The position numbers were made by a program, and so were the translations under genes. DNA of 64,000 nt from Nitrospira tepida (GTDB lineage Bacteria; Nitrospirota; Nitrospiria; Nitrospirales; Nitrospiraceae), in NCBI RefSeq assembly GCF_947241125.1, contig NZ_OX365700.1:3814001-3878000 (forward strand), given 5' to 3'. The notes under the pieces are model-generated. The model had not been told where the DNA came from. It was given only the letters and a program-made list of their open reading frames with translations, and ran no database searches. Positions 4,274-15,078 of this stretch are shown here, in pieces (the stretch's first letter is position 1; every line of letters starts with the position of its first letter).

Positions 4274-4684
4274 TCAGAAATCCTCGATTTGGATCCACGG
4301 GACACGGGCAAAGTGCTTGTGATCGTAGGTAAGGATCTGCGTGAGCCCCCGCTCTCTCATTTCGAAGGCGGTGTACGCATCGACAAAGTCGATGCTTGCA
4401 TGCACATAGAGATCAAGCGCCAGAAGAATAAGCGGCATGTCGGGACATTCCAGGTTGGGTGTATTCAGAATTTTCTCGACCTTCGCTGCGATATCTGGTT
4501 TGGCGACCTTGTAAAAAGACTCCAGGGTCCAGATGATTTCGGCGATGACGAGCAGGCTCGTCGCCAACCGAACCTTGCCGCGCAGGGCGTCTCGAAACAG
4601 TGTCTCGGCGCGTTTGGCTTTGCCCGGGTCGTCGTTGGTTAAGAAACGGAGAAACACATTGGTATCGACGAACAGGTTAACCAT
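4274..4684 (-). CDS. vapC: VapC-type PIN-domain ribonuclease toxin
   Basis: A 136-residue PIN domain of normal VapC length. It opens with FVDTNVFLRFL, carrying the first catalytic Asp, has a conserved Glu in VIAEIIWTLE and the later acidic pair in IDFVDAYTAFE; these residues hold the metal ions used to cleave RNA. It overlaps the 3' end of the antitoxin gene by 8 bp, the usual translational coupling of vapBC. The final WIQIEDF is also typical. The RNA target cannot be predicted. Confidence 0.9.
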   Translation of the reverse strand: MVNLFVDTNVFLRFLTNDDPGKAKRAETLFRDALRGKVRLATSLLVIAEIIWTLESFYKVAKPDIAAKVEKILNTPNLECPDMPLILLALDLYVHASIDFVDAYTAFEMRERGLTQILTYDHKHFARVPWIQIEDF

Positions 4685-5488: not shown

Positions 5489-7801
5489 TTACTCCCTCTC
5501 CCTCCCATGCATCCTCATGAACAGCTCCCAATCGAAGGGCTTGGGGGCGAGCGCGTGCAGCGGGATGGCTTCGACCGCGGCCTGGTCCCGGTAGGCCAGC
5601 ATGCAGCCCACGACATCTGCGGGCCGTTCAACCAGCCGGCGGATTGTTTCATAGGCCAGGTGCTGCGCGATGGCCTTGTCCTCCGGCGTCGGCGGCGCGC
5701 CGCGCAACGTGTGGCCGAGGATCGTGGCCTTCGTGGCGGGCGTGAGCGGATAGTGCCCGTCGTGCGGGCGCACCTGCGGCCAGCCCGCGACCTCCCGCGC
5801 CACAAACTCGGGCAGGCCGTGCACCCCGCCCTCCGGATGGTGGCGATGCGGCGTCCGTTCGGCGACGAGAAACAGATGGCTCTTGTTCGGTACGCCCAAC
5901 GACCGTTTCAGGGTGCCGAGAATCACCTCGTCGATGTAGGCGTCCGGATCGGGATGTTCGTTCACCAGCACCCCTTCCGCCCGGGCCTGATAGGCACAGG
6001 CCAGGGCCAGATGGCCGGACCCGGCTCCCATCACCTCCACGAAGAACACGCTCCCCATCGCCGAGCTGGTCGCCTTCAACGATTCGATCGACTGGTCGGC
6101 CAATCGGATGGCCGAATGAAAGCCCAGCGACGTGGTCCCGGCCAGATTGTTGTCGATCGTCCCGGGAATCCCGACCACCTGGACCCCGAAGGTCTCATAG
6201 ATGGCGCGCGCCCCGCGCAGGCTGCCGTCGCCGCCGAGCACGACCAGGGCGCCGTCCCGTAGGAACGGCTCCAGATGCCGCACCGCCGCCCGTTGCACCT
6301 GTTCGTCCTTGAAATCTTCGAACCGGCTGCTGCCGATCGGGCTGCTCGGCCTGCTGCCCAGCATGCGCGTGTCCTGTTCGGAGACCTTCTCGATCCAATT
6401 GTTCGCCAGGCCGAGAAAGCCGTGCCGCACGAAGTACACTTCCAATCCGAACCGGTTTCCAGTCACCCGCAATTCCTTCAGCGCCGCCCCGGCCCCGGCA
6501 AAGTCTCCGCCCGACACCAGCGCCACGATCCGCCTCACCTGCTGCGGCTTCAACATGACGCGATCCCGCCTGGTGCGTTCCACCGACATCCAGGCTTCCC
6601 GCTCCGCCCGCTCGCGCTGCGACAGGCCCACCGCGGTTGAATAGCCCGAGATCTGGCGGTTCTCATAGGTCAGCAACACGACGTTGTCCTGGCCTTCTTT
6701 ATATTCGCCGAACTCGGTGAAGGCCTCCGCGAACGGACGAGGGTCCAGAAAGATCATCAGCGCCCGCAAGGTCGAGCTGTGGGTGTAGAGGCAGGCCACG
6801 GTGCCGCGATGCGCCTCCGCCAGCCGATGAATGCCATCGACCACGCTCACATAGGTATCGAAAAAGGAGTTGCCGCCCGGATAGCAGTAGAGCGGATGTT
6901 TGAGCAGGGTCTTGGCGACCTTCGCGTCGACGCCGAACGCCTGCGCCGCCGCCTCGGCCTCCGCCGCCTTCTCGATGCCGGTCACCCAGCCGAAGTCCTG
7001 CGACTCCAAGGCATCGGCCGTCATGGGAGCGGCCGACTCTCCTCGTCCCGCCGCCAGCGCCGCGGACACCCGCTGATACAATTGCGTCGTGTTCGGGCTG
7101 CGGCTCACCAGGTGCACGAACGATTGCGGGTCCAGATAGTTGTGGACATGCAAATAATCGAGCTGCTGCCCGACCACCCCGAGAATCTTTGCCAAGGCCG
7201 TTCCGACCGCCTCCGCCTTGGCGATGCCCCGTTCCTGATCCAGCACGTTCGCCAGCCGGCAGCCGACCCGATGGGTCTTGCTTTCGACCTGCGAGATGCC
7301 GTGCCGCATCGCAAACAGCAGCGTGCGCTCGGTCAGGTCGCGGGGCAGGAGCCAGAAGCGGTCGTCTCCCAAGTCGAGGACGATCCGCCCCTCTGCCAGT
7401 TGCGGGGTGAGCTGCGCGCGGGGCACGATCGCGACGGGACGCCGGATCGGCGGCTTCTGCACCCGTCCGATGGCGGCCCGATAGAGGGACACGAGCCGCC
7501 CCTCCGCCACCAGCCTGTTCCAGGCGGCATAGAAGACGAGGGCATCGCCGCCGCAAGGACCGTCGATCAGTTCCTGTCTGGCTGCACGATAGGCGCCGGC
7601 ATCGGCAAACCCGGCCGCAGCCCGCTCGACAACAGACAGGATACCAGCCTGCGCGGCCGTGGCCTGCCTGACACGATCAGCGGAAGGCGCGATCGGCCCC
7701 GGCAGCACCGCCTCGCCGATACGCGGCAAGCGGCTCAGCGCCTCCCCGTAAGCCAGCAACGATTCCACCGTGACGAATTGGAGATGGTCGGTCTTGGACA
7801 T
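5489..7801 (-). CDS. histidine-phosphatase / 6-phosphofructokinase fusion protein
   Basis: A 770-residue protein. Residues about 160-385 look like a histidine-phosphatase domain: FAMRHG (His167), then YPGGNSF (307-313) and THSSTLRAL (340-348), the order seen in phosphoglycerate mutase and fructose-2,6-bisphosphatase. Residues about 423-770 are a PFK-1-type domain: SGGDFAG, GSRPS, GGDGS (523-527), PGTIDNN (546-552) and EVMGAGSG (589-596). GGDGS rather than GGDDS favours ATP over pyrophosphate. Two usual PFK residues differ: the second Asp of TIDND is Asn and the Arg of EVMGR is Ala. In the phosphatase part the usual Glu of PGGES is Asn. Residues 1-155 are unrecognised. A role in the fructose-6-phosphate / fructose-bisphosphate step is inferred; activity of either half is uncertain. 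Confidence 0.8.
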   Translation of the reverse strand: MSKTDHLQFVTVESLLAYGEALSRLPRIGEAVLPGPIAPSADRVRQATAAQAGILSVVERAAAGFADAGAYRAARQELIDGPCGGDALVFYAAWNRLVAEGRLVSLYRAAIGRVQKPPIRRPVAIVPRAQLTPQLAEGRIVLDLGDDRFWLLPRDLTERTLLFAMRHGISQVESKTHRVGCRLANVLDQERGIAKAEAVGTALAKILGVVGQQLDYLHVHNYLDPQSFVHLVSRSPNTTQLYQRVSAALAAGRGESAAPMTADALESQDFGWVTGIEKAAEAEAAAQAFGVDAKVAKTLLKHPLYCYPGGNSFFDTYVSVVDGIHRLAEAHRGTVACLYTHSSTLRALMIFLDPRPFAEAFTEFGEYKEGQDNVVLLTYENRQISGYSTAVGLSQRERAEREAWMSVERTRRDRVMLKPQQVRRIVALVSGGDFAGAGAALKELRVTGNRFGLEVYFVRHGFLGLANNWIEKVSEQDTRMLGSRPSSPIGSSRFEDFKDEQVQRAAVRHLEPFLRDGALVVLGGDGSLRGARAIYETFGVQVVGIPGTIDNNLAGTTSLGFHSAIRLADQSIESLKATSSAMGSVFFVEVMGAGSGHLALACAYQARAEGVLVNEHPDPDAYIDEVILGTLKRSLGVPNKSHLFLVAERTPHRHHPEGGVHGLPEFVAREVAGWPQVRPHDGHYPLTPATKATILGHTLRGAPPTPEDKAIAQHLAYETIRRLVERPADVVGCMLAYRDQAAVEAIPLHALAPKPFDWELFMRMHGRERE

Positions 7802-9737: not shown

Positions 9738-10598
9738 CTACTCGACCGAAAAATCCAGCATCATGCCCTTGGTGAAATGGGGGGCGCCGGTCTGCGGATC
9801 TTCGAAGAAACAGAGCAACCCATACCGGCCGGCTTCGAAATCCTCTATGAAATAGCCCCGGCCTCCCTTTTCGATCCCCACGATGCCGCCGACGGGCAGC
9901 CCGGGGGGCGGACCGGATGCGCCTGGCTCGAACGAAGCAGCCCAATCCTTCGCGGTGGCGCCGGGGGCCAGCTTCACCACCACGACCTCATGCGGTTGCG
10001 CGCCCTTGTTGGTGACCTGGACCATATGGTGTCCGGCCCTGACCGGCTGCGAGAGGGAGAAGCTGAAATCGGATTGGGTAATGGTCAGGTCGGCCTTCGG
10101 CTCGGCGAACGCTGCGGATTTGGCCGGCATGACGGTCACGGGCTTCTGCATGCCCAGAGCCAGGTGCGGAACGCCCTGCCCATTCGGGATCAAACAGAGC
10201 AAGACGTACTCGCCGGCGTCGAGCCGCATGATGGCTTCGGCTTGGCCTCCCGGCACCACCGCGTTGGGGCCGCCGACAAAGGTCGCCCAGGCCGGCGGGT
10301 GAGCCGGGTTTTCCATCATCGCGGCAGCAAAGTCCGCCGCCGTTTTCCCTTGAGCCAACCTCACGAGCTGCACGTGGTGCGGCCCTTTCCCCTGGTTGAC
10401 CACACGCACCGCCGTCATGCCGGCCGGAATCCGATCCGGCCCCTTGAATCCATAATCATGGGCGGTGAAAATGACGGGCCCTGCGCCGGCCTGCTCGGCG
10501 GCCGCCTGATGAACCGGCATCACCGTCGTCCCGACGGCCAGGGCCGCGGCAAGTAGAATGTTCGATACCTTGATCGTGCGAGGATTTCGACTCTTCAT
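9738..10598 (-). CDS. periplasmic protein with two cupredoxin-like repeats
   Basis: A 286-residue exported protein with a signal peptide ending near residue 34 (VHQAAAE). It consists of two related domains of about 115 residues. Each carries a possible type-1 copper set: His74/75, Cys135, His145, Met150 in the first and His203, Cys263, His274, Met279 in the second. In classical plastocyanins two residues separate Cys and His; here there are 9 or 10, so copper binding is plausible but not assured. It may carry electrons or copper in the periplasm. The gene is transcribed leftward and diverges from the split-barrel operon at 10764. Confidence 0.7.
   Translation of the reverse strand: MKSRNPRTIKVSNILLAAALAVGTTVMPVHQAAAEQAGAGPVIFTAHDYGFKGPDRIPAGMTAVRVVNQGKGPHHVQLVRLAQGKTAADFAAAMMENPAHPPAWATFVGGPNAVVPGGQAEAIMRLDAGEYVLLCLIPNGQGVPHLALGMQKPVTVMPAKSAAFAEPKADLTITQSDFSFSLSQPVRAGHHMVQVTNKGAQPHEVVVVKLAPGATAKDWAASFEPGASGPPPGLPVGGIVGIEKGGRGYFIEDFEAGRYGLLCFFEDPQTGAPHFTKGMMLDFSVE

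Positions 10599-13887: not shown

Positions 13888-15078
<1,191 letters not shown>

Follow-up and report, generated by a model that had tools for sequence, protein, structure and literature searches.

Which role might a phosphofructokinase (PFK) play when a histidine phosphatase (HP) precedes it in the same polypeptide? This question is raised by a gene in the 64,000-nt stretch of Nitrospira tepida DNA analysed here (the window), which occupies positions 5489-7801 of the minus strand and encodes 770 amino acids without an internal stop. The first-pass annotation had described it as an HP domain fused N-terminally to a PFK-1-like domain, that is, the pair of activities of eukaryotic PFK-2/FBPase-2 with another kinase fold and in reversed order, and had pointed out that several usually essential residues are changed. 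The gene is organised as follows:

5489..7801, minus strand: fusion gene, 770 aa (open reading frame and full-length homologues)
7451..7801, minus strand: helical N-terminal domain, residues 1-117 (AlphaFold2 model)
6542..7450, minus strand: HP (histidine-phosphatase, branch 1) region, residues 118-420, core ~160-385 (Pfam, Foldseek, profile alignment to FBPase-2)
5492..6541, minus strand: PFK-1-type domain, residues 421-770, core 424-748 (Pfam, Foldseek, conservation)

Both folds of the proposed fusion were supported by Pfam and by structure search. The Pfam PFK family (PF00365) matched residues 424-721 with E=7e-55 and 186.7 bits against a cut-off of 30.9, and the full AlphaFold2 model resembled bacterial PFK-1 (5xz7/1pfk; Foldseek TM 0.85 by target). 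Together with the Asp127 equivalent and the GGD motif, present in 66/66 family members, this places the C-terminal half in the PFK-1 superfamily. His_Phos_1 (PF00300), expected from the first-pass annotation within residues 160-385, was indeed found at residues 250-353, scoring 21.3 bits on the full protein, just below the cut-off of 21.7, and 24.8 bits, above the cut-off, on residues 118-420 alone; 38 of 39 family members also matched it (best 4e-8). The AlphaFold2 model of the HP region alone (pLDDT 81.4, pTM 0.79) matched HP-superfamily structures in the PDB, among them PhoE (1h2e; TM 0.72, E=5.5e-8). A profile of the HP half matched PDB sequences weakly (best E 0.79), and it was the fold search that gave the HP assignment. 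The fold, the RHG nucleophile and the second catalytic His are those of branch 1 of the superfamily. The model of the whole fusion has a pLDDT of 78.5 and a pTM of 0.60, low enough that the relative placement of the HP and PFK halves is not predicted. Across the family alignment, the N-terminal domain is the least conserved section (mean 52% identity) and the PFK-1-type domain the most conserved (mean 80%), while 31% of the columns of the HP half are invariant, suggesting that this half is constrained like a functional domain.

A scan with exact peptides over one genome per GTDB species returned 64 loci, all of them titled as Nitrospirota (Nitrospira, Manganitrophus and relatives) apart from L029. 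The latter is a metagenome-assembled (MAG) contig labelled Nitrosospira (Pseudomonadota), whose fusion nests within the Nitrospira clade; the MAG is probably mislabelled or misbinned. As to the phylogenetic spread, approximately 72 of 117 sampled genomes of the class Nitrospiria carry the fusion, at 62-81% identity, a carrier being a genome with a PFK match inside an open reading frame of 750-890 aa, or a split equivalent. Outside the class, full-length matches were absent from a 246-genome sample of the phylum, which yielded ordinary PFKs only, at 26-36% identity. A profile of the HP half matched in 27 of 148 phylum genomes, always inside frames of 764-885 residues, and found no stand-alone HP half in these 148 genomes. 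Outside Nitrospirota, plasmid records matched the PFK half only and phages gave no match. The fusion thus appears limited to the class in the data examined; other phyla were covered by exact peptides, and a distant fusion may exist there. Three small Nitrospiraceae genomes (G105, G161 and G165; 1.7-2.0 Mb) had no fusion. G161 and G165 also had no pyruvate kinase, and the pyruvate kinase frame of G105 has a stop; PF00365 matches were entirely absent from the streamlined G161 and G165 and from genus g12. Phosphofructokinase has been reported absent from streamlined freshwater Nitrospira (PMC9239080).

Neither a local accident nor faulty assembly explains the fusion. It lies far beyond chance, being complete at most of 64 further loci and represented by 66 non-identical aligned sequences. 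Full-length reading frames across 91 loci ruled out an assembly or frameshift artefact as its origin, and decay of the motifs in this genome alone was ruled out since the changes are fixed across the family. Two copies are imperfect: in a Candidatus Manganitrophus MAG (L065:5935-8315) the two halves are separated by a frameshift that is likely due to a sequencing error, and the copy at L063 is masked with N.

We aligned the kinase half with E. coli PfkA, canonical members from the class and PPi-PFKs, and counted residues over the 66 non-identical fusions, which also served for the residue counts in the HP half. Its motifs are:

6221..6235, minus strand: GGDGS, residues 523-527, ATP-type donor motif, invariant (meaning of the motif, PMC12203962)
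6146..6163, minus strand: GTIDNN, residues 547-552; D550, the Asp127 catalytic base, is invariant, and N552 replaces Asp129 (66/66)
6023..6031, minus strand: MGA, residues 591-593, with Ala593 in place of Arg171 (66/66)
5702..5731, minus strand: KATILGHTLR, residues 691-700, with K691 for Arg243, and H697 and R700 (His249 and Arg252) kept (alignment)

Invariant in all fusions are D550 (Asp127), D525, R493 (Arg72), E648 (Glu222), H697 (His249) and R700 (Arg252), as well as M591, G592 and the ATP-type residues G526, G530 and G547 (Gly, not the PPi-type Lys). The changes are equally uniform. Arg171 is Ala, Arg243 is Lys and Asp129 is Asn in every sequence, and the Arg162 position (584) holds Ser in 63/66 and otherwise Thr or Asn. 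Effector positions are altered as well (21 Lys; 25 Val, Ala or Ser; 154 Lys; 211 Val; 213 Asn). One divergent fusion outside this pattern (L116, G267:C13) retains Asp where Asp129 aligns (SIDND), and the change to Asn therefore came later than the fusion or was reverted. For residues other than Arg162, Asp127 and the donor motif, the roles given are those of their E. coli PFK counterparts. With the equivalents of R162, R171, R243 and D129 all changed, ordinary fructose 6-phosphate (F6P) binding may be lost. Asp127 is the general base and the GGDG/Gly donor motif is of the ATP type, and Arg162 is one of four ligands of the F6P phosphate as well as the element that moves in the R/T switch (PMC12203962). 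Since Arg162 is lost, classical PFK allostery cannot work in the same way in the fusion.

The PFK half scored below every NCBIfam PFK cut-off (best 176.2 versus 253; TIGR02482, 171.9 versus 371), and both this score and the residues at Arg162, Arg171 and Arg243 keep it out of the PfkA equivalog. In a tree, the PFK halves of the fusions grouped in one fully supported clade, whose stem measures 4.4 substitutions per site and whose tips are short; the position of the stem among other PFKs was unsure (support 89/23). A long stem followed by strong constraint is the pattern suggestive of a function that was changed and then retained.

The HP half was aligned as a family profile with a Nitrospirota HP set and FBPase-2, covering the whole domain, and the FBPase-2 sequence used was compared with PDB 1fbt. 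The landmarks of this half are:

7298..7306, minus strand: RHG, residues 166-168 (R166; H167, nucleophile), invariant in 66/66
7088..7099, minus strand: SPNT, residues 235-238; N237, aligned with FBPase-2 Arg307, is Asn in 66/66
6986..7006, minus strand: ESQDFGW, residues 266-272, region of the HP acid; position 266 is acidic (E/D) throughout and D269 is invariant
6866..6883, minus strand: YPGGNS, residues 307-312, aligned with YPKGES of FBPase-2; position 311 is His in 48 and Asn in 18
6764..6784, minus strand: THSSTLR, residues 340-346, with the second His, H341, and R346, both invariant

R166 and H167 align with Arg257 and His258 of FBPase-2, H341 with His392 and R346 with Arg397, and all four are invariant; we take the numbering of these residues, and of Arg307 and Glu327, to be that of the rat liver enzyme. 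The column of the second phosphate Arg (Arg307) holds the invariant Asn237 in a weakly aligned helix, where R239 is variable and R244 is present in 65/66. Being near Asn237, R244 could stand in for the second phosphate Arg. The acid of FBPase-2, Glu327 in NEIDAG, aligns with S267 of ESQDFG, and the adjacent E/D266 and D269 are acidic, so that the acid need not have been lost. A catalytic HP half is therefore possible but not secured.

These alignments also sort out the altered residues listed in the first-pass annotation. All of its motifs had been read correctly (RHG 166-168, PGGNS 308-312, THSS 340-343, TIDNN 548-552 and EVMGA 589-593), and two of the changes that it stressed, TIDNN (N552) and EVMGA (A593), proved fixed in 66/66. 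The third, PGGNS, does not concern a catalytic position: the loop, PGGHS in 48/66 and PGGNS in 18/66, aligns with YPKGES, a substrate-side loop in FBPase-2, while the acid Glu327 lies in NEIDAG, and PGGNS was thus rejected as a sign that the catalytic acid has been lost.

Comparison with known enzymes showed partial likeness to several. With bacterial PfkA (E. coli, Geobacillus) the fusion shares the fold (TM 0.85), Asp127, the GGDG donor motif and the equivalents of Arg72, Glu222, His249 and Arg252; it differs in the additional 420-residue N-terminal part, the altered effector site, the 4.4-substitution stem, and Ser, Ala, Lys and Asn in place of R162, R171, R243 and D129. Like eukaryotic PFK-2/FBPase-2, a likeness that would be one of function only, it combines a kinase of the F6P field with a branch-1 HP domain in one chain. 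Its kinase, however, belongs to the PFK-1 superfamily and is C-terminal, whereas the PFK-2 kinase is a P-loop protein and N-terminal, and Asn aligns with the second HP Arg. Membership in PFK-2/FBPase-2 is ruled out, since PF00365 and PF00300 were the only domains found, the kinase is C-terminal and it has the PFK-1 fold; the different fold and reversed order noted at first sight were thus borne out. Yeast PFK-1 similarly carries an extra N-terminal enzyme-like domain (glyoxalase-like; PMC12203962), but the added fold is different and the yeast PFK is duplicated, whereas the fusion has a single PFK domain. Branch-1 HPs (PhoE, dPGM, the alpha-ribazole phosphatase CobC and TIGAR) share the fold, RHG and second His; unlike them, the fusion contains long insertions, lacks a conserved Arg where the second one would align, and carries an attached PFK.

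At 69 of the 91 loci the gene for pyruvate kinase (pyk) is a direct neighbour of the fusion gene, divergently in 48 (with gaps mostly <250 bp), in tandem with pyk downstream in 17 and convergently in 4; the identity of pyk was confirmed by NCBIfam at one locus, L063. Coordinates from whole-genome searches, listed by hand, also showed this adjacency in 33 genomes. Parsimony on a tree of 80 fusions required 3 changes to account for the three orientations, indicating that the two genes stayed together despite rearrangement; this speaks for a functional link. The adjacency was absent from the deep families of the class among the 91 loci and on this tree. N. tepida itself has no such adjacency, its pyk lying at 4.63 Mb, 0.8 Mb from the fusion gene; the nearest relatives of its fusion have the convergent arrangement, and N. 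tepida has evidently lost it. An IS110-family transposase (13888-15063) lies ~6 kb from the fusion gene here. A PIN-domain protein, the probable toxin of a toxin-antitoxin pair, is encoded at 4274-4684, on the downstream side of the fusion gene. The window further encodes a secreted-looking protein of 286 aa with two similar halves and no Pfam or NCBIfam match (9738-10598). By co-occurrence, pyk was present in 70 of 72 genomes with the fusion versus 27 of 45 without it (Fisher p ~3e-7; 8e-4 without genus g12), both values being confounded by ancestry. Glycogen phosphorylase, considered as another functional clue, was uninformative, with matches in 96 of 117 genomes. In Listeria we found pfkA adjacent to pyk as well, so the same pairing occurs for true glycolytic PFKs.

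Most carriers in the class sample also have an ordinary PFK, PfkA-like and ~330-360 aa long in the outer families and PPi-type and ~430 aa long in Nitrospiraceae, which argues that the fusion is not a plain housekeeping enzyme. It is the sole PF00365 match in G088, G110, G117, G125, G127, G137, G189, G206 and other genomes. The N. tepida genome encodes two PPi-PFKs (NF041103; L002 and L003; 623 and 652 versus 550 bits in NCBIfam) at G000:C1:2585717-2586676 and 4361761-4362723. They belong to the same superfamily as the fusion, but have PPi-type GGDD/PKTIDND motifs and no HP domain. The second adjoins an archaeal-type fructose 1,6-bisphosphate (FBP) aldolase/phosphatase (NF041126; 585 versus 520 bits; L003:883-3517, ~4.36 Mb), a gene pair of opposite flux directions. 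With two PPi-PFKs and this aldolase/phosphatase, F6P/FBP interconversion is already covered in the genome.

To our mind there is about an even chance that the fusion is a class-specific, functionally shifted PFK-1 relative behind an HP module, which jointly with pyruvate kinase takes part in controlling glycolysis versus gluconeogenesis. Given that the catalytic Asp and the Mg/ATP residues never vary, and that the same holds for half of the contacts to the sugar phosphate, the kinase half would most likely still transfer phosphate from ATP to a sugar phosphate, be it F6P or a close relative such as sedoheptulose 7-phosphate. The classical R/T switch has lost its driving element, Arg162. In its RH...H pocket the HP half would bind a phosphorylated metabolite. 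It would then either hydrolyse this metabolite through phosphohistidine, opposing the kinase, or supply a regulatory signal in place of the lost one, by ligand binding or by phosphorylation at His167. The architecture, the conservation, the residue changes, the pyk linkage and the coexistence with ordinary PFKs are observed, whereas catalysis by either half, the substrate, and any control or opposition that the HP module exerts on the kinase are inferred. The conserved pyruvate kinase linkage lends independent support to the link with glycolytic control. The site of action would be the F6P/FBP and PEP/pyruvate control points in autotrophs that use the rTCA cycle and both make and use glycogen, as described for the N. 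marina genome (PMC8115632).

A true bifunctional enzyme, whose opposing halves make and break a sugar bisphosphate as a bacterial functional counterpart of PFK-2/FBPase-2, would be favoured by the invariant D550, the invariant R166, H167, H341 and R346, the alignment of the HP half with FBPase-2 over its length and the neighbouring pyk; with Asn237 at the second HP Arg, an uncertain acid and altered F6P-phosphate residues, we hold it to be rather doubtful. Its more specific form, in which the PFK-1-type kinase and the HP make and destroy a sugar-bisphosphate signal as a convergent PFK-2/FBPase-2 counterpart steering carbon flow in nitrifiers and manganese oxidisers, is in our estimate unlikely. 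The replaced sugar-phosphate and effector Args, the very long stem, the scores below every NCBIfam PFK cut-off and the ordinary PFK alongside in most genomes would also suit a non-catalytic regulator, with both halves acting as sensors upon pyruvate kinase, the linked gene, or upon the ordinary PFK. There is a model for this: in eukaryotic PFK-1 the C-terminal PFK half was turned into an allosteric site. That half has Ser at the Asp127 position in human PFK alignments, whereas the fusion keeps D550 and invariant Mg/ATP residues, and in several genomes, such as G110, G125 and G137, the fusion is the only PFK found, which makes such a regulator quite improbable. The PFK fold, the ATP-type motifs and a pyk neighbour, as in Firmicutes, could finally be those of an ordinary glycolytic 6-phosphofructokinase with an inert added domain. 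The fixed loss of R162 and R171, the long stem, scores below the PFK equivalog cut-offs (176 versus 253), the extra PFK in most carriers and the constraint on the HP half render this very improbable.

We found no published description of an HP/PFK fusion, and no characterised enzyme of the same architecture, in an open-licence library, the papers on N. defluvii and N. moscoviensis aside. A 2025 review of the PFK superfamily names the yeast glyoxalase-like N-terminal domain as the sole extra fused domain and expects more (PMC12203962). The component families are known; what appears new is their combination, its conservation within a class and the rewired kinase site. The protein enlarges the set of domain fusions recorded for this superfamily, and metabolic reconstructions would be misled if it were labelled simply as 6-phosphofructokinase.

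Nitrospira rank among the principal nitrite oxidisers, and complete ammonia oxidisers are found in the group as well. Their carbon is fixed through the reductive TCA cycle, and they have to alternate between synthesis and consumption of sugar and glycogen, a node whose control in Nitrospira we did not find described in the open-licence literature. With its rewired F6P and effector residues and the new enzyme-like module at its N-terminus, this PFK paralogue is a concrete candidate for that control, and the fusion may be a custom control point of central sugar metabolism in the Nitrospira class.
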